DNA of 64,000 nt from Pseudofrankia inefficax (lineage in GTDB: Bacteria; Actinomycetota; Actinomycetes; Frankiales; Frankiaceae). The notes below the pieces were generated by a model. It was not told the origin of the DNA. It did no database searches and saw only the letters and a list, made by a program, of their open reading frames with translations. This document shows, piece after piece, positions 4,932 to 11,550 of this stretch. The stretch lies in NCBI RefSeq assembly GCF_000166135.1, contig NC_014666.1, positions 7,812,001 through 7,876,000 of the forward strand. The letters are read 5' to 3'. Positions within the stretch are counted from its first letter, which is position 1, and each line of letters begins with the position of its first letter. A program made the position numbers and the translations under genes.

Positions 4932-4959
4932 CTTTCAGTGACAGGAATGTCACTGAAAG
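4932..4959. terminator. perfect 12-bp hairpin overlapping a stop codon
   Basis: Arms at 4932-4943 and 4948-4959 are exact inverted complements around a four-base GGAA loop. The TGA stop of the pentapeptide-repeat gene (minus strand) lies inside the right arm. There is no T-tract on either strand, so it is terminator-like rather than a classical intrinsic terminator; it may instead protect the 3' end or be a small repeat. Confidence 0.5.
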
Positions 4960-5609
4960 ACGATGCCGAGCGCGGTCGCGAGCGACGGGGCGAGACCCAC
5001 CAGGTCCCCGGCGCCGACCTGGGCGCCGGCCAGGCCGTCGGCGCCGGTCACCCGGTCGAACCGGCAGTCGGCGAACCGCGCGGCGACGACGGTCATGCCG
5101 GAGAAGTCGGCGCCGGTCAGGTCGCAACGGATGAACTCGACGTGGTCGAGCCGGCTCCTGGTCAGATCCAGCCCGGTCAGGTCACAGTCCTCGAAGCGGC
5201 AGCGGTGCAGCCGGCAGAACCGCAGGGTCAGGCCGTCGGCGCGCACACCGGTCAGGCGGGCGTCATGGATCTCGCCGCTCACCCAGACGGCGCCGGACAG
5301 CCGGCCACCGTCGACGGCCACCCTGGTCGCCGCGCCACCGTCGGCCACGGTCCCCGCGAGCGCCACCTCCCGGGCCGCGACGTCCCGCAGGGTGACGCCG
5401 GCCAGGTCGCCACCGACCACGCGCAGCCTCGCCAGCCGGGCCCCGACCAGCGTGACGTCGCGTCCGTTCCCGTCGCCGGTGGTGGCGAGCAGGTCGGCGA
5501 GCTCGACGGGCTCCGCCGGGCCGGGCGCCGGCGCGCCCGGCGGCTCGGACGGGAGATCCGGAACCACTGGAGCCCAGGGATCGCCCCGCCGCCGCGCCGT
5601 CGTCGCCAT
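4950..5609 (-). CDS. pentapeptide-repeat protein
   Basis: A 219-residue protein. After a Pro-rich N-terminus (residues 1-35) comes a run of five-residue units of the A(D/N)LxX type: VTLVGARLARLRVVGGDLAG, then CRLHRCRFEDCDLTGLDLTR, then VEFIRCDLTGADFSG. Pentapeptide repeats fold as a right-handed quadrilateral beta-helix. Some members mimic DNA and protect gyrase (Qnr, MfpA); others are of unknown role. The repeats here are irregular in the middle (GEIHDARLTGVRADG) and better towards the C-terminus, and the chain is close to MfpA/Qnr length (180-220). Whether it binds gyrase cannot be told from the sequence. The gene ends within a hairpin and the GDT1 homologue lies just upstream on the same strand, 31 bp away, so the two may be co-transcribed. 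Confidence 0.8.
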   Translation of the reverse strand: MATTARRRGDPWAPVVPDLPSEPPGAPAPGPAEPVELADLLATTGDGNGRDVTLVGARLARLRVVGGDLAGVTLRDVAAREVALAGTVADGGAATRVAVDGGRLSGAVWVSGEIHDARLTGVRADGLTLRFCRLHRCRFEDCDLTGLDLTRSRLDHVEFIRCDLTGADFSGMTVVAARFADCRFDRVTGADGLAGAQVGAGDLVGLAPSLATALGIVFQ

Positions 5610-5640: not shown

Positions 5641-6405
5641 TCAGCCGCGGATGACGTCGACCAGGCTGATGACCGCGAGGACGACGAACGCCGCCGCCGC
5701 GACCCGGGTGATGACCTTCACCGGGATGACCCGCAGCAGGCTGCGGCCGCCGGCGATCGCGAGCCCGGCGACGGCCCAGAGCGCGAGGACCGCGCCGAGC
5801 CAGACCGACACCGGCGAACCGAACCGGGCGGCGAGGTTGGCCGTCGAGATCTGGGTCAGGTCACCCATCTCGGCCACGAAGATGACGGTGAACGACGTCG
5901 CCGCCACCCGCCAGAACCCACGCGGCGTCTCCCGGGCCTTCTTGCCGCCCGCGGTCACCACACCCGCCGCCGCCACGCCGGCCGCCGAGGCGTCTGTCGC
6001 CGACGAGGGCTCGTCGGACCGGGCCACGCTGGCGGCGCCCACCGGACCCGGCCCGGCCTCAGCCGTCGCGCCCGGCCCGTCCGGGCCGACAGCCTGCGCG
6101 ACCTCCCGCTCGGCCTCGGCCTCCTCCTCGGCCTCGTCGTCGTTGCCCTCCCGGTAGACGAGGACCGCCCCGATGACGAACAGCGCGAGGGCCACGGCGT
6201 CGACGACGCGGTGTGGCAGGAGCGTGAAGACGCTGCCGACGGCGACCGCCAGCGTGACGTGCACGAGGAACGCGGCGGCGACCCCGATCCACACGTGCAG
6301 CGGCCGGAACCGGCTGCCGAGCACCAGGCTCGCGACGAGGGTCTTGTCGGGCAGCTCAGCAAGAAAGATGACGCCGAACGTTACGAGCGCGGCGGTAAGG
6401 CTCAC
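5641..6405 (-). CDS. GDT1/UPF0016-family manganese (calcium) exporter
   Basis: A membrane protein of about 254 residues with two homologous halves of three helices each, the layout of the TMEM165/GDT1 (UPF0016) cation:H+ exchanger family. Each half carries a version of the family motif ExGD(K/R)(T/S): AELPDKT near residue 20, where Gly is replaced by Pro, and AEMGDLT in the second half. A long charged, acidic loop (REGNDDEAEEEAEAE) joins them. Bacterial relatives (MneA) export Mn2+. The start is taken as GTG 6405, with GAAGGG a few bases upstream, because the family begins at a first helix like LTAALVTFGVIFLAELPDK; the open frame continues to 6630 through what I read as a leader RNA. A yybP-ykoY-type motif in that leader supports a manganese role. 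Confidence 0.85.
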   Translation of the reverse strand: MSLTAALVTFGVIFLAELPDKTLVASLVLGSRFRPLHVWIGVAAAFLVHVTLAVAVGSVFTLLPHRVVDAVALALFVIGAVLVYREGNDDEAEEEAEAEREVAQAVGPDGPGATAEAGPGPVGAASVARSDEPSSATDASAAGVAAAGVVTAGGKKARETPRGFWRVAATSFTVIFVAEMGDLTQISTANLAARFGSPVSVWLGAVLALWAVAGLAIAGGRSLLRVIPVKVITRVAAAAFVVLAVISLVDVIRG

Positions 6406-6926
6406 GGCCTGGCCCTTCTTCTCGGGCCGGGCCGTGGCGCGGGGACGCCTTCGACCCGGCGTCGCGAACCGGATCGAAGGTCTCGCCCACCCGACCGGTT
6501 CCGAGACCGACCAGGCCCAGCCGCCGGGCCTGCGCCGCGTACCGGCCGGCCGTTGCCGACCCGCCTCACGACGCCGCCAGTATGTCGACGACAGGGCCGC
6601 CCGACACGGGCCTACCGAAACAGCAGGCATGCCGGACAGCAGGGCTACTCCCCTTCTGGGCTCACCTTACCCAGGCCTCGTGGGACGCAGGACCCCGTTG
6701 CGGCGTCCATCACCCCGCCGCAAGCGGACGTGACCTGGCCAGTCCGCCCCGGCCAGTCCGCCGGACGCTTCGCCCCAAAAGGGCCCAGCCCGGCCCACAG
6801 ATGCGACAGACCGCTATGAAATCATCGCCCGGGCACCGCCCACGGCAGACGTACCTGGTCTGTCGACGGCGGCGCGCGGCCCGCGGTCGAGGACCCGTAG
6901 TCGAATCCGTAGTCGAGGAGAGGCGC
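6406..6926. other. divergent intergenic region with leader RNA
   Basis: These 521 bases separate the GDT1-family gene (minus) from the methyltransferase gene (plus). The part towards GDT1 is its leader and holds the candidate manganese riboswitch. The part towards the methyltransferase ends in a strong ribosome site (GAGGAGAGG). Open frames crossing it look like chance frames of GC-rich DNA. Confidence 0.6.
6555..6675 (-). ncRNA. candidate yybP-ykoY manganese riboswitch
   Basis: On the minus strand the leader of the GDT1-family gene contains AAGGGGAGTAGC (plus-strand 6644-6655), the hallmark first conserved loop of the yybP-ykoY class, and about 60 nt downstream GTCGTCGACATA (plus-strand 6580-6591), which resembles the second conserved, metal-contacting loop. 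This class senses Mn2+ and commonly precedes UPF0016/MntP-type exporters. I could not confirm the P1 pairing by eye, so the boundaries are approximate. About 150 nt separates it from the GTG start. Confidence 0.65.
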
Positions 6927-7937: not shown

Positions 7938-9188
7938 TCAGGCGAACAGGCCTCGGGCCCAGTAGTCGCCGCCGGTGGCGGAGACGCCCGGGGGGACGGC
8001 GAACAGCGCGCTGCTGGTGTGCCGGATGTACTCGTTCAGCGCGTCCGACTGGGCCAGCCTGCGCTGGACCGGGACGAACCCGGTGCGCGGATCGCGTTGG
8101 AAGGCGATGAAGAACAGGCCCGCGTCGAGCTGACCGGTCTGCTGGTCGACGCCGTCGGTGTACGAGTAGCCCCGCCGCAGCAGCGTGATGCCGCCATTGG
8201 TGGCCGGAGCGGCGAGCCGGATGTGGGCGTCGGCCGGGATCACCTGGGCGCCGTCCTCGCCCTTGGCCGCGAGCGGCACCGGGTCGAACTCCGTCTCCGC
8301 TCCCAGGGGGGCGCCGGTGTCCTTCCGCCGGCCGAAGACGTCCTCCTGGTCGGCGAGGAAGTCGCGGTCCCACGCCTCCAGCAGCATCCGGATCCGGCGG
8401 GTGACCACGTAGGTGCCGCCCCGCATCCACGCCTGGTCGGTGTCCGGGCCGACCCAGACATGGGTGGCGAGGGACTTGGTGTCCTCTCGCTTGATGTTGT
8501 TCGTGCCGTCCTTGAAGCCCATCAGGTTGCGCGGGGTCTGCTGGGCGGAGCTGGTGGTGCTCGTCCGGCCGAATCCCAGCTGGAACCAGCGCAGGACGGC
8601 GGTGCCCTGGGCCAGCCGGCGCAGGTTGCGCACGGCGTGGAAGGCGACCTGCGGGTCGTCGGCGCAGGCCTGGATGCACAGGTCGCCGCCGCCGCGGTCG
8701 GGCTCGAGCTCGTCGCGGGGCATCGCGGGGATGTCGGCGAGCGCCGCCGGCCGCCGGGCGCTCAGGCCGAAACGGTCGTCGAACAGCGACGGGCCGACGC
8801 CGAAGGTGATGGTCAGGTTGGCCGCGGACAGGCCCAGCGCCTCGCCGGTGTCCCTGGGCGGCGACTGCGGCGCCGACTCGACGTCGCTGACCGGCTCGCC
8901 GGCCGCCATCCGGCTGGCGGCGTCGGTCCAGATCCGCAGCAGGTCACGCAGCTCGTCGCGGGTCACACCGGCCGAGACGTCGAAGGCCGCGAAGGCCAGC
9001 CGGTCCTGCGCCGCGGTGCTCACCCCGGCCTGCTGCGGGCCGTGGAACGCGACGACGTCTCGCGGCGCGCCGGCCGGCGGCTTCGAACCGTCGTCCGAGC
9101 AACTGGCCAGTGTCGCCGCCCCTGCCCCCGCCAACCCGGCCGCGCCGAGCAGCGCCCGGCGTCGAGAGAGCCCACGCTGCTCGGCCAT
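7938..9188 (-). CDS. efeB: EfeB, Tat-exported Dyp-type heme peroxidase
   Basis: A Dyp-type peroxidase of 416 residues, third gene of efeUOB. The N-terminus has a twin-arginine signal (SRRRALLGAAGLAGAGAATL) ending in ASC, so the protein is exported folded with heme. The Dyp signature GFKDGTNN supplies the distal Asp. Conserved segments FGVGPSLFDDRFGL and the C-terminal LFFIAFQRDPR match the EfeB branch. EfeB was proposed to oxidise Fe2+ for EfeO/EfeU or to release iron from heme (deferrochelatase); the first is the better supported view in Gram-positives. The start is ATG 9188, directly preceded by an in-frame GTG. It follows efeO by about 90 bp on the minus strand. Confidence 0.93.
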   Translation of the reverse strand: MAEQRGLSRRRALLGAAGLAGAGAATLASCSDDGSKPPAGAPRDVVAFHGPQQAGVSTAAQDRLAFAAFDVSAGVTRDELRDLLRIWTDAASRMAAGEPVSDVESAPQSPPRDTGEALGLSAANLTITFGVGPSLFDDRFGLSARRPAALADIPAMPRDELEPDRGGGDLCIQACADDPQVAFHAVRNLRRLAQGTAVLRWFQLGFGRTSTTSSAQQTPRNLMGFKDGTNNIKREDTKSLATHVWVGPDTDQAWMRGGTYVVTRRIRMLLEAWDRDFLADQEDVFGRRKDTGAPLGAETEFDPVPLAAKGEDGAQVIPADAHIRLAAPATNGGITLLRRGYSYTDGVDQQTGQLDAGLFFIAFQRDPRTGFVPVQRRLAQSDALNEYIRHTSSALFAVPPGVSATGGDYWARGLFA

Positions 9189-9279
9189 CACTGCTGAATC
9201 CCCTCGTGATCTTCCTGGGAGGTACCCACCGCCTGGCGGCCGTCCGGCTTCTCGCTCGAACGGCCGCCCGTGCGGTGCC

Positions 9280-10428
9280 TTACTGCACGATCGTCCCGGC
9301 CACCTGCGACAGCGGCTCCGCCAGCGCGTCGACGGCCTGCGAGAGGGTCTTGCGCTGGGCCTCGGTCACCTTGTCGTAGGAGACGTAGCCCGTCCCCTCC
9401 TTGTACGGCGCCATCGCGGCGTACATGTCGGTGAAGCGGCCCTGGACCGTCGAGGCCAGCGTCGGGTTGATCTTCGACAGACCCGGCTGGAGCAGGGTGA
9501 ACGCCTTGTCCGCGCCATCGATGTTGCCCTGCATGTCCAGCAGGTCGAGCTTGCTGTAGCGCTCTTCCTCACCGGTGATCTTCGACTGGCCCACCTCGTC
9601 GAGCAGCTCGGTCGCGCCGTTGGCGACCTGGGCCGGCTGGTAGGTCGTCGTGGCGACGAGCGTGTTCAGCTTGCCGACGTCGGCCTGCAGCTGGTCGGCG
9701 ATCGGGCCCATCCCGTCCAGCGACTTGTCGGCGAAGATGGCCTTCTCCAGGCGGTGGAAACCGGTCCACTTCGCCGGGTCGTCGACGTCGTCGATCCGGG
9801 CGTCAATGGCGGGGTCGAGATCCCCGAACGCCTCGGCGACCGGCTCGATCCGCTCGTAGTTCAGGCGCGGCGCGCCGTAGAGGGCGGCGGCCTGGGTGAG
9901 GTCGCCGGCCTTGACCGCGGCGACGAACGGCGTCGTGTTGGTCACCAGCTCCGCGACCTGGGCCTTCACGTAGTCGGCGTACTGGGTGGCGGCCGTGTTG
10001 AGCGCGGTGACCACCTCCGGCGAGAGCGTGGTCACCGCGGCACCGGAGGCCGCCTGGGTGACGACGAAGTCGACCTTCTCCGGGCCGCCCTTCGCGCCCG
10101 GGCAGTAAAGCTGGTACTTGCCCGGCTTGACGTTCAGCGAGAACGTGCCGGAAAGGCCCGGCGTGAGGTTCTCCTTCTCACCGAGAATCGTGTCGCCGTT
10201 GAGCAGCTCGGCCTCGGTGATGGCGTCGGCGTCCTTGTTTGTGATCTTGAACGTCGTCGCCCCCGCCGGAATGGTGGCCGGGTCGGCAGTACAGCCCTTG
10301 GACGAGATCGTCACGTTGACGGTCTGCTTGCCGGCGCTCGTCCCGGATCCCGACGAGCTGCCTCCGCAGGCGGCGCACGCGGCGGTGATGACGGCGATGG
10401 CGCTGAACGCGAGTGGTGCGCGGCGCAC
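9280..10428 (-). CDS. efeO: EfeO, iron-binding lipoprotein of the EfeUOB system
   Basis: EfeO is a 382-residue exported protein with an N-terminal cupredoxin-like domain (about residues 35-125: VTISSKGC, TFKITNKDAD, NLTPGLSGTFSLNVKPGKYQLYCPG) and a C-terminal imelysin/M75-type helical domain with the expected GFHRLEKAIF motif and iron-ligand Glu/His region. The signal sequence has Cys at residues 18 and 21, consistent with a lipoprotein. Start is GTG 10428, preceded by GGGGGTA; upstream in-frame residues do not resemble a signal peptide. It binds ferric or ferrous iron outside the membrane and hands it to EfeU. It sits between efeU and efeB, all on the minus strand. Confidence 0.93.
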   Translation of the reverse strand: MRRAPLAFSAIAVITAACAACGGSSSGSGTSAGKQTVNVTISSKGCTADPATIPAGATTFKITNKDADAITEAELLNGDTILGEKENLTPGLSGTFSLNVKPGKYQLYCPGAKGGPEKVDFVVTQAASGAAVTTLSPEVVTALNTAATQYADYVKAQVAELVTNTTPFVAAVKAGDLTQAAALYGAPRLNYERIEPVAEAFGDLDPAIDARIDDVDDPAKWTGFHRLEKAIFADKSLDGMGPIADQLQADVGKLNTLVATTTYQPAQVANGATELLDEVGQSKITGEEERYSKLDLLDMQGNIDGADKAFTLLQPGLSKINPTLASTVQGRFTDMYAAMAPYKEGTGYVSYDKVTEAQRKTLSQAVDALAEPLSQVAGTIVQ

Positions 10429-10575
10429 GGAGTACCCCCAGTATTTGTGAGTGTTTGTTTGTGTGGGCGGACAGCCCCGGGCGGGACCGTGGGCTGTCCA
10501 GCCACCAGCTGCCCTGGCCGCGGCGGGCCCGGCCAAGGCGCCGGCGTATTGCGGCCGCTGGTGTTCGACGCGGTG

Positions 10576-11550
10576 CTATTTCCGGGGAGCCGGCTCCGGT
10601 TGGAGCTCACCCGTCGACGTCTGTGCCGCCGTCCCGGCGGGCGCCGACCCGACAGTCGCCGGCACGGTGGTGTCGGGGGCGGAGCCCTGCGGTGTCGCGG
10701 TTTCCGCCGCCACGGGTGCCGTCGTGGCCGCCGCGGCGGGAGACCCGCGCCGCCTGGTCGGCCAGGCGATGAACAGCACCAGCGGGACGAGATAGACGAT
10801 CCAGGCCACGAACTCGGCGACGACCGGGCGCGGCTGCAGCCCCAGCACGCCGGTCAACACGCTGGCCAACGGCGTACCCGGCCGCACAAGCCACGACATG
10901 TCGAACATCTGCTTCTGGCCGGCATTCAGCCAGCCAGCCTCGTGGCCGGTGTGCGCGGCCGTCGCAAGCAGTCCGGCGGCGACCAGGACGAGAACGAGCC
11001 CGGTAACCCGGAAGAAACGGGAGAGGTTGATGCGCACGCCGCCGCGGTAGATACCAATACCAATGACAACCGCGACGAGCACACCGAGGAGCGCTCCTAT
11101 GCCCGCGCTGGCGGGCGAAGTGCTCGCGTTGAAGGCCGCGATCAGGAATACGGCCGTCTCGAAGCCCTCCCGCAGCACGGCGAGAAAGGCCATCGCGACC
11201 AGGGCGCCGGTGGACCCCGTCTCGAGCGCCGACGCGGTCGCGTTCTCCAGCGAGCGCTTGAGGTCGCGGGAGTTGCGTCGCATCCACAGGATCATGTAGG
11301 TGACCATCGCCACCGCTATGAGCCCGATGACGGTCTCCAGCCCCTCTTGCTGGCGCTGCGGCAGCTCCCGGTCGACCGCCTGCAGGGCGATGCCGACGGC
11401 CAGGCAGAGCACCAGAGCCAGGCCGACACCGAACCAGACCTGGCGCAACGCGTCGCGCCGGCCGCGCTGCCGGAGGAAGGCGGCGACGATGCCGACGATC
11501 AGGGATGCTTCCAGCCCCTCCCGCAGCCCGATCACAAAAGTGGGAAGCAC
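10576..11550 (-). CDS. efeU: EfeU, FTR1-family iron permease
   Basis: A polytopic membrane permease of 324 residues with seven predicted helices and the two REGxE iron-translocation motifs of the FTR1/Fip1 family: REGLE at residues 10-14 and REGFE near residue 127. The last about 45 residues are a Pro/Ala/Thr-rich hydrophilic tail absent from the E. coli protein. The first helix starts immediately after the Met (LPTFVIGLREGLEASLIVG), which fixes the start. It is the first gene of efeU-efeO-efeB; a DtxR/IdeR-like palindrome lies about 50 bp upstream, so iron-dependent repression is likely. Confidence 0.94.
   Translation of the reverse strand: MLPTFVIGLREGLEASLIVGIVAAFLRQRGRRDALRQVWFGVGLALVLCLAVGIALQAVDRELPQRQQEGLETVIGLIAVAMVTYMILWMRRNSRDLKRSLENATASALETGSTGALVAMAFLAVLREGFETAVFLIAAFNASTSPASAGIGALLGVLVAVVIGIGIYRGGVRINLSRFFRVTGLVLVLVAAGLLATAAHTGHEAGWLNAGQKQMFDMSWLVRPGTPLASVLTGVLGLQPRPVVAEFVAWIVYLVPLVLFIAWPTRRRGSPAAAATTAPVAAETATPQGSAPDTTVPATVGSAPAGTAAQTSTGELQPEPAPRK

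Follow-up and report, generated by a model that had tools for sequence, protein, structure and literature searches.

A well-known class of manganese-sensing riboswitches is yybP-ykoY (RF00080). Two Mn-sensing riboswitches, those of mntP and alx, have been reported in Escherichia coli (PMC9603457). For the aptamer of Xanthomonas oryzae a crystal structure exists, in which A48 contacts Mn2+ through N7, and the same paper proposes for the class a weak P1.1 switch helix and control by antitermination (PMC6754395). A review counts, among 333 screened bacterial strains with UPF0016, 328 in which the gene stands under a yybP-ykoY element, and names MneA of Vibrio cholerae as a Mn2+ exporter (PMC7380456). 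A member with a three-way junction, that of Streptococcus mgtA, has also been described, as told in PMC9495176. In Corynebacterium glutamicum, RF00080 members have bit scores of 43.71, 49.13 and 49.90, and a transcript has been observed for the member before terC (PMC3890552). Among titles and abstract openings retrieved on yybP-ykoY/Mn2+ riboswitches in Streptomyces and Mycobacterium, or on riboswitches in Frankia, none concerned the element analyzed here.

The current work deals with the leader of a GDT1/UPF0016 gene of Pseudofrankia inefficax, the genome of which measures 8.8 Mb in one contig. The window is the whole stretch of 64,000 nucleotides that was analyzed (NC_014666.1, 7,812,001 to 7,876,000), and all positions are counted within it. 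The leader is very probably a yybP-ykoY-class predicted Mn2+ riboswitch of an actinobacterial form that controls the GDT1 gene. This agrees with what a sequence-only reading of the same DNA had proposed, and support comes from the core motifs, covariation, the recovery of alx and mntP by a model of the new form, a P1-P4 fold and the linkage to GDT1. The switch is ordinary in kind, since the class is well known; the window's member is new.

The gene lies at 6405-5641 on the minus strand and encodes 254 amino acids from a GTG start at 6405. Its protein matches PF01169 (E 1.8e-37) in two stretches that correspond to the two GDT1 repeats, which bears out the UPF0016 gene that had been placed downstream of the leader. 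The repeats carry the motifs ELPDKT and EMGDLT, whereas GDT1/UPF0016 proteins have the full E-x-G-D-K/R-S/T in both repeats. An exporter role for Mn2+ is predicted, and we infer both this role and Mn2+ as the ligand of the switch. In the best segment, the protein shares 90% identity with its counterpart in Frankia sp. AgB1.9; for the counterparts in Pseudofrankia sp. BMG5.36, Frankia nepalensis and Pseudofrankia asymbiotica the identities are 60-67%. Eight proteins were scanned; seven are GDT1 (the window's and those of 6 relatives) and the eighth is the window's FTR1 permease. The pairing of regulator and gene in the window is the same as that reviewed for GDT1/UPF0016 under yybP-ykoY (PMC7380456).

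The two motifs quoted in the sequence-only reading are found on the minus strand in the order claimed: motif 1, AAGGGGAGTAGC, at 6655-6644, and then motif 2, GTCGTCGACATA, at 6592-6581, which has the longer form GTCGTCGACATACT at 6592-6579. The distances needed correction. From motif 2 to the start codon there are 175 nt, where about 150 nt had been given, and the span 6555-6675 is too short, as the 3' half of the aptamer reaches 6476. The rest of P3, P4, the 3' strands of P1.2 and P1.1 and a third core element, GGCGAGACCTTC (6487-6476, minus strand), fall outside that span. This third element, the strand that closes P1, was absent from the earlier reading.

Motif 1 has a sole exact copy in the window and three further sites with 2 mismatches, where about 2.5 chance sites are expected at up to 2 mismatches. 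In the genome, GGGGAGTAGC occurs in 12 copies, a number equal to that of the reversed control, so motif 1 alone is at chance level. The three elements taken together are beyond chance: sought as GGGGAGTA[GC], GTCGACA[CT][AG] and [GA]AGACCTT, in this order and not more than 330 nt upstream of the gene, they were found before the GDT1 homologue at 70 of 80 loci in the relatives' genome contigs and not found within that distance at the remaining 10. Of the 35 genomes of the window's family, 27 yielded GDT1, and the leader motifs precede it in 24 of the 26 other family genomes that have the gene, the exceptions being L147 and L162.

In comparison with the yybP-ykoY class, the window has the same L1, GGGGAGUAG, with P1.1 below and P1.2 above it (6656-6642), the same GUC-ACAUACU of P3/L3 and the same closing strand, GCGAGACC; it also shares the P1 switch helix, the competing anti-P1 pairing and the Mn2+ exporter gene downstream, these last being predicted in the window. 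It differs in that RF00080 does not detect it, L3 is flanked by a G-C rather than an A-U pair of P3, the helices P2, P3.2 and P4 are long, and the whole is G+C-rich. The E. coli alx and mntP elements have L1 and the closing strand as in the window, and L3 of mntP is ACAUACU; however, the proteins downstream are Alx and MntP and the G+C content is lower. The likeness to the Xanthomonas oryzae aptamer is drawn from L3, where ACA48U49ACU52 of the crystal structure is letter-identical to L3 of the window (PMC6754395).

The aptamer extends from P1.1 to P1.1 at 6656-6476 on the minus strand, as judged from the three core motifs, a covariance-model match and the fold with P1 imposed. Its first part (6656-6642), placed by covariation and folding, consists of the 5' strand of P1.1 (6656-6652), L1 GGAGUA (6651-6646, with the conserved A6649) and the 5' strand of P1.2 (6645-6642). 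P2 (6640-6596) is a long hairpin, 6640-6629/6607-6596 continued by 6628-6621/6617-6610, and is enlarged in the lineage of the window. P3 (6592-6586/6526-6520) has an inner extension, P3.2, and with it occupies 6592-6520, on the evidence of covariation and folding; the L3 bulge ACAUACU (6585-6579) matches both L3 of Xanthomonas oryzae and the RF00080 consensus. P4 (6516-6506/6499-6489) has 98.7% of cells paired in 7 sequences and one pair changed on both sides. The 3' part (6488-6476), supported by conservation and folding, comprises the P1.2 strand GGGC (6488-6485), a GAGA joint and the P1.1 strand CCTTC (6480-6476). When P1 is imposed, the canonical P1-P4 fold with a 7-nt L3 is obtained from the sequence of the window; P1 and P2, the failure of which to form had been named beforehand as a ground for rejecting the riboswitch, can thus both form, as can the 3- or 4-way junction of the class. 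The unconstrained minimum-energy fold of the leader is not the canonical P1-P4.

Covariation of the helices was evaluated in an alignment of 35 aptamers, none of which is from the genus of the window and one of which (L160) is from its family. P1.1, P1.2, P3 and P3.2 covary, with 89.9% of cells paired in comparison with 27.9-46.0% when the partner strand was slid, a control that accounts for relatedness. Twelve pairs changed on both sides, and the covariation score was 0.314 against 0.120; in both measures 0 of 500 shuffles were as high, though these shuffles ignore relatedness. The weakest of the five measures was that of further pair types, for which 24 of 500 shuffles were as high. In a second alignment, A2, of 7 sequences (the window and 6 relatives), 96.6% of aptamer-helix cells are paired, and 4 of 500 shuffles matched its doubly changed pairs; further pair types were not above the shuffles (494 of 500 as high). 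P2 is well kept in A2, where 99.0% of its cells are paired and 4 of its pairs are doubly changed; P1.2 is mismatched once in 2 of the 7 sequences, and P3 itself is without a doubly changed pair.

The space between L1 and P3 varies in length. L1 and GTCGACA are 55 nt apart in the window, 38-118 nt apart in most of the family and 14 nt apart in L160 and L161. Stretches of 104-118 nt between L1 and P3 were seen in the family members L144, L146, L148, L149, L158 and L159. Among the 35 aligned aptamers, columns 16-40, from L1 to the conserved GTCG of P3, hold 14 letters in 26 and 15 letters in 7; with 14-15 letters between L1 and P3, those aptamers have no room for a real P2.

The motif ACAUACU is present in 22 of the 35 aligned aptamers, and the discriminator A at alignment column 47 in all 35. 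A6583 aligns with A48 of Xanthomonas oryzae and is on that basis predicted to be the discriminator adenosine that coordinates Mn. The window reads CGUCG for CGUCA, and replacement of the Mn-coordinating adenosine by G was considered and rejected, as the changed base belongs to the P3 pair beside L3 (A-U to G-C). The change leaves the discriminator adenosine, the second A of ACAUACU, intact.

A covariance model, R1, was built from the 35-aptamer alignment. With this model both E. coli switches are recovered, alx at 38.8 bits (E 6.9e-10) and mntP at 33.0 bits (E 3.2e-8). In the window, R1 gives one match at E up to 10, at 6659-6472 on the minus strand, with 20.9 bits and E 8.5e-4 after a bias correction of 16.2 bits. 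Genome-wide, the site is the best of 7 matches, yet its E of 0.116 is not significant, and under the stricter filters of a scan of 148 genomes the window's own genome is not counted. Relatives with a shorter P2 score higher: 43.3 bits in L018, 43.2 in L020, 40.9 in L142 and 32.7 in L138. Three of these, L018, L020 and L142, belong to the genus of the window, and it is through them that the window is linked to the validated members. The nearest relatives, L017 and L137, have the same long P2 as the window and score 18.0 bits. On the antisense strand of the L018, L020 and L142 aptamers (and of duplicate entries), R1 reaches 19.4-20.1 bits; scores near 20, including the 20.9 of the window, thus prove little alone. 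Because its own R1 score is weak, the element in the window rests more on its motifs, helices and relatives.

Among the best 50 R1 matches in 148 genomes of the class, a set that includes training genomes, at least 48 lie 69-487 nt upstream of a GDT1 gene on the same strand. Some candidate copies were discarded on inspection. The weak R1 matches L169-L171 were not taken as second copies: around L169 and L171 there is no L1 motif at up to 2 mismatches, and L170 has 2-mismatch L1 lookalikes only. Some Frankia loci have two R1 matches each, which could be taken for tandem aptamers; at L154 the two matches are parts of a single aptamer interrupted by a long P2 region.

The check that the sequence-only reading had itself suggested, a search of the site with RF00080, returned nothing, an outcome that had been named as a ground for rejection: the leader gave no match at E up to 10, and there was none in the window at the gathering score and none at the site in a search of the whole genome, in which the four weak matches were all away from it. 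The site therefore falls short of the gathering score of 45 bits. At that score neither alx nor mntP of E. coli is listed in Rfam 15. On the validated alx leader (L167:1874-2001, plus strand) RF00080 has no match at E up to 1, and under relaxed settings mntP receives 44.9 bits, 0.1 below gathering. Since RF00080 misses alx and mntP falls just short, its silence at the site is not decisive, and the score does not define the class. None of 20 leaders of relatives matched at the gathering score; with relaxed settings, the short relative L040 was aligned in register (25.6 bits, E 1.4e-5), a sign that the family is present in divergent form.

Among the 148 genomes of the window's class, none has an RF00080 match above the cut-off and 9 have one at E up to 0.01; at least 113 of the same genomes contain GDT1, and 86 have an R1 match that reaches E 0.01. 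Training sequences of R1 came from twelve of these 86, and others may sit among the training contigs, so the comparison somewhat favors R1. The standard RNA-family search misses the switch of the window and many of its actinobacterial relatives, which constitutes an annotation gap; with a model tuned to the G+C-rich forms, many GDT1 genes of actinobacteria would gain a prediction of Mn2+ control.

A riboswitch that has degenerated and lost its function in this lineage would explain the failure of RF00080, and the low R1 score and the large growth of P2 are in keeping with it. The low score, however, is accounted for by insertions. Across the 7 A2 sequences no change is seen in L1, in GAGA or in the strands of P1 and anti-P1, nor in L3 save one C in L019, and the pairing of P2 has been kept through changes on both sides. 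Degeneration is accordingly very improbable.

The functional riboswitch, which is preferred, is also preceded by a conserved promoter element. A -10 element, TAAGGT (TANNNT), lies at 6669-6664 on the minus strand, and its placement before P1 is conserved: TANNNT is found 7-20 nt upstream of the 5' strand of P1 in 107 of 108 non-identical leaders (ten identical upstream regions having been dropped from 118), as against 0-3 of 108 in six control windows of 14 nt. A scan with the sigma-70 consensus found no promoter at the leader. Judged from the conserved -10 box, transcription probably starts where the 5' strand of P1 begins, which would give an untranslated leader of about 250 nt.

The GDT1 frame is open upstream to an ATG at 6630 (6406-6630), across most of the aptamer, and automatic annotation may set the GDT1 start inside the riboswitch. 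It could be argued from this open frame, from the silence of RF00080 and from the chance-level frequency of motif 1 that the motifs are accidental, or that the stretch from 6630 is GDT1 coding sequence. This explanation is refuted by the conservation at 70 of 80 loci, the covariation, the -10 box just upstream and an indel of 17 nt: in L138 the P2 region is 17 nt shorter than in the window, and as this is not a multiple of three, the stretch behaves like an RNA element rather than like coding sequence.

The riboswitch has a strong hairpin that competes with P1. The anti-P1 hairpin (6480-6448, minus strand) pairs CCTTCGATCCGGT (6480-6468) with GCCGGGTCGAAGG (6460-6448) over 13 bp, and because its first arm overlaps the 3' strand of P1, the two structures exclude each other. 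Its 13 contiguous pairs compare with a mean of 5.7 in shuffled sequence, and 0 of 60 shuffles were as long; the hairpin is invariant in all 7 A2 sequences. After ten identical 3' regions were dropped (119 to 109), a contiguous anti-P1 stem of at least 7 bp was found in 102 of 109 non-identical leaders, which share ancestry. The stems of 7-8 bp in most Streptomyces are individually not significant against 60 shuffles, and stems of only 4-6 bp are those of L109-L113, L116 and L119. Where P1 has changed, the partner follows: in L133 and L134, in which P1 is CCTCC, over 9 bp (0 of 60 shuffles), and in L097 and L099, in which it is CCTTTG, at a length not above shuffles (15 and 10 of 60). The search picks the best complement, which favors finding such co-changes of P1 and anti-P1.

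In folding without ligand, anti-P1 is favored in the window by about 13 kcal/mol (ensemble -169.2 versus -156.2), and its probability is at least 0.94 in 21 of 22 folded leaders and 0.81 in L148. A gap of 13 kcal/mol is large for a switch at equilibrium; control would therefore need to be exerted during transcription.

The stage at which the riboswitch acts, translation or transcription, stands at about even odds. A ribosome-site hairpin (6436-6403, minus strand) holds an SD-like GAGAAGAAGG (6423-6414) in or beside its loop and GTG (6405-6403) in its stem. If output is translational, formation of P1 with Mn2+ would indirectly open this hairpin, and such output has close to an even chance of being correct. 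The hairpin is shared by the 7 A2 sequences with 89.3% of cells paired, the leader of the window is without a U-tract terminator, and in L109 and L112 the 3' strand of anti-P1, GTCGAAAGG, occupies the place of the SD 8-9 nt before ATG, although the contiguous anti-P1 stem of these two is only 4 bp and needs a bulge. The hairpin of the window, on the other hand, forms in both modeled states: whether P1 or anti-P1 is imposed, the SD (mean unpaired 0.50) and the start codon (at most 0.01) are hidden to the same degree. No consistent shift in accessibility was seen across 22 folded leaders (L138 left out), and the hairpin covaries little (56 of 500 shuffles as high, both helices together). A relay, by which the letters of anti-P1 would open the ribosome-site hairpin once they are freed, was rejected, as folding did not support it. 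In L109:1384-1439 and L112:1369-1424 (minus strand), where GTCGAAAGG stands before ATG, the alternative helix would mask the ribosome site.

With transcriptional output, transcription at low Mn2+ would be stopped either by the anti-P1 hairpin, acting without a U-tract, or by Rho that loads onto the open leader. This form of the same riboswitch has somewhat below an even chance. The strength of the 13-bp hairpin speaks for it, as do the Frankiaceae counterparts that lie well upstream of the start codon and the unresponsiveness of the ribosome-site hairpin in folding. Against it, no U-tract terminator and no terminator-like site was found in the leader of the window, and hairpin termination without a U-tract is disputed in actinobacteria.

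With either output, the preferred riboswitch would operate as follows. Transcription would begin at the 5' strand of P1. At high Mn2+, the ion would bind between L1 (GGAGUA) and L3 (ACAUACU, through A6583) and dock both arms. The docked arms would stabilize the weak switch helix P1 (GAAGG/CCUUC) while the transcript is being made and tip the choice away from anti-P1. At low Mn2+, CCUUCGAUCCGGU would pair with GCCGGGUCGAAGG in the 13-bp anti-P1 hairpin, and expression would be low. The switch is thus likely to be of Mn2+-ON polarity; binding would turn the GDT1 exporter on, by which Mn2+ excess would be relieved. Such a switch explains how a soil bacterium of the Frankia type probably senses an excess of Mn2+.

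A wider claim can be made tentatively, and it is doubtful at present: actinobacterial GDT1 leaders could form a large, mostly unannotated subclass of Mn2+ switches with rebuilt outer parts. In such a subclass, P2 would be near-absent in Streptomyces and Mycobacterium types, 38-118 nt would separate L1 from P3 in most Frankiaceae, and the anti-P1 strand would be the ribosome site or, in Frankiaceae, part of a terminator hairpin without a U-tract.

Some features of the neighborhood were also recorded. A gene for a pentapeptide-repeat protein (4950-5609, minus strand) begins 31 nt past the GDT1 stop. A homologue is present at 7 of 13 tested loci of relatives, with 76-96% identity in five of them and 48-58% in L158 and L144. 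Given the same strand, the 31-nt gap and the homologues in relatives, this gene may be co-transcribed under the switch. On the other side, minus-strand genes at 7938-11550 encode an FTR1 permease (10576-11550), an imelysin/cupredoxin protein (9280-10536) and a DyP-type peroxidase (7938-9191), which we take to be a probable EfeUOB-type cluster for ferrous iron uptake.
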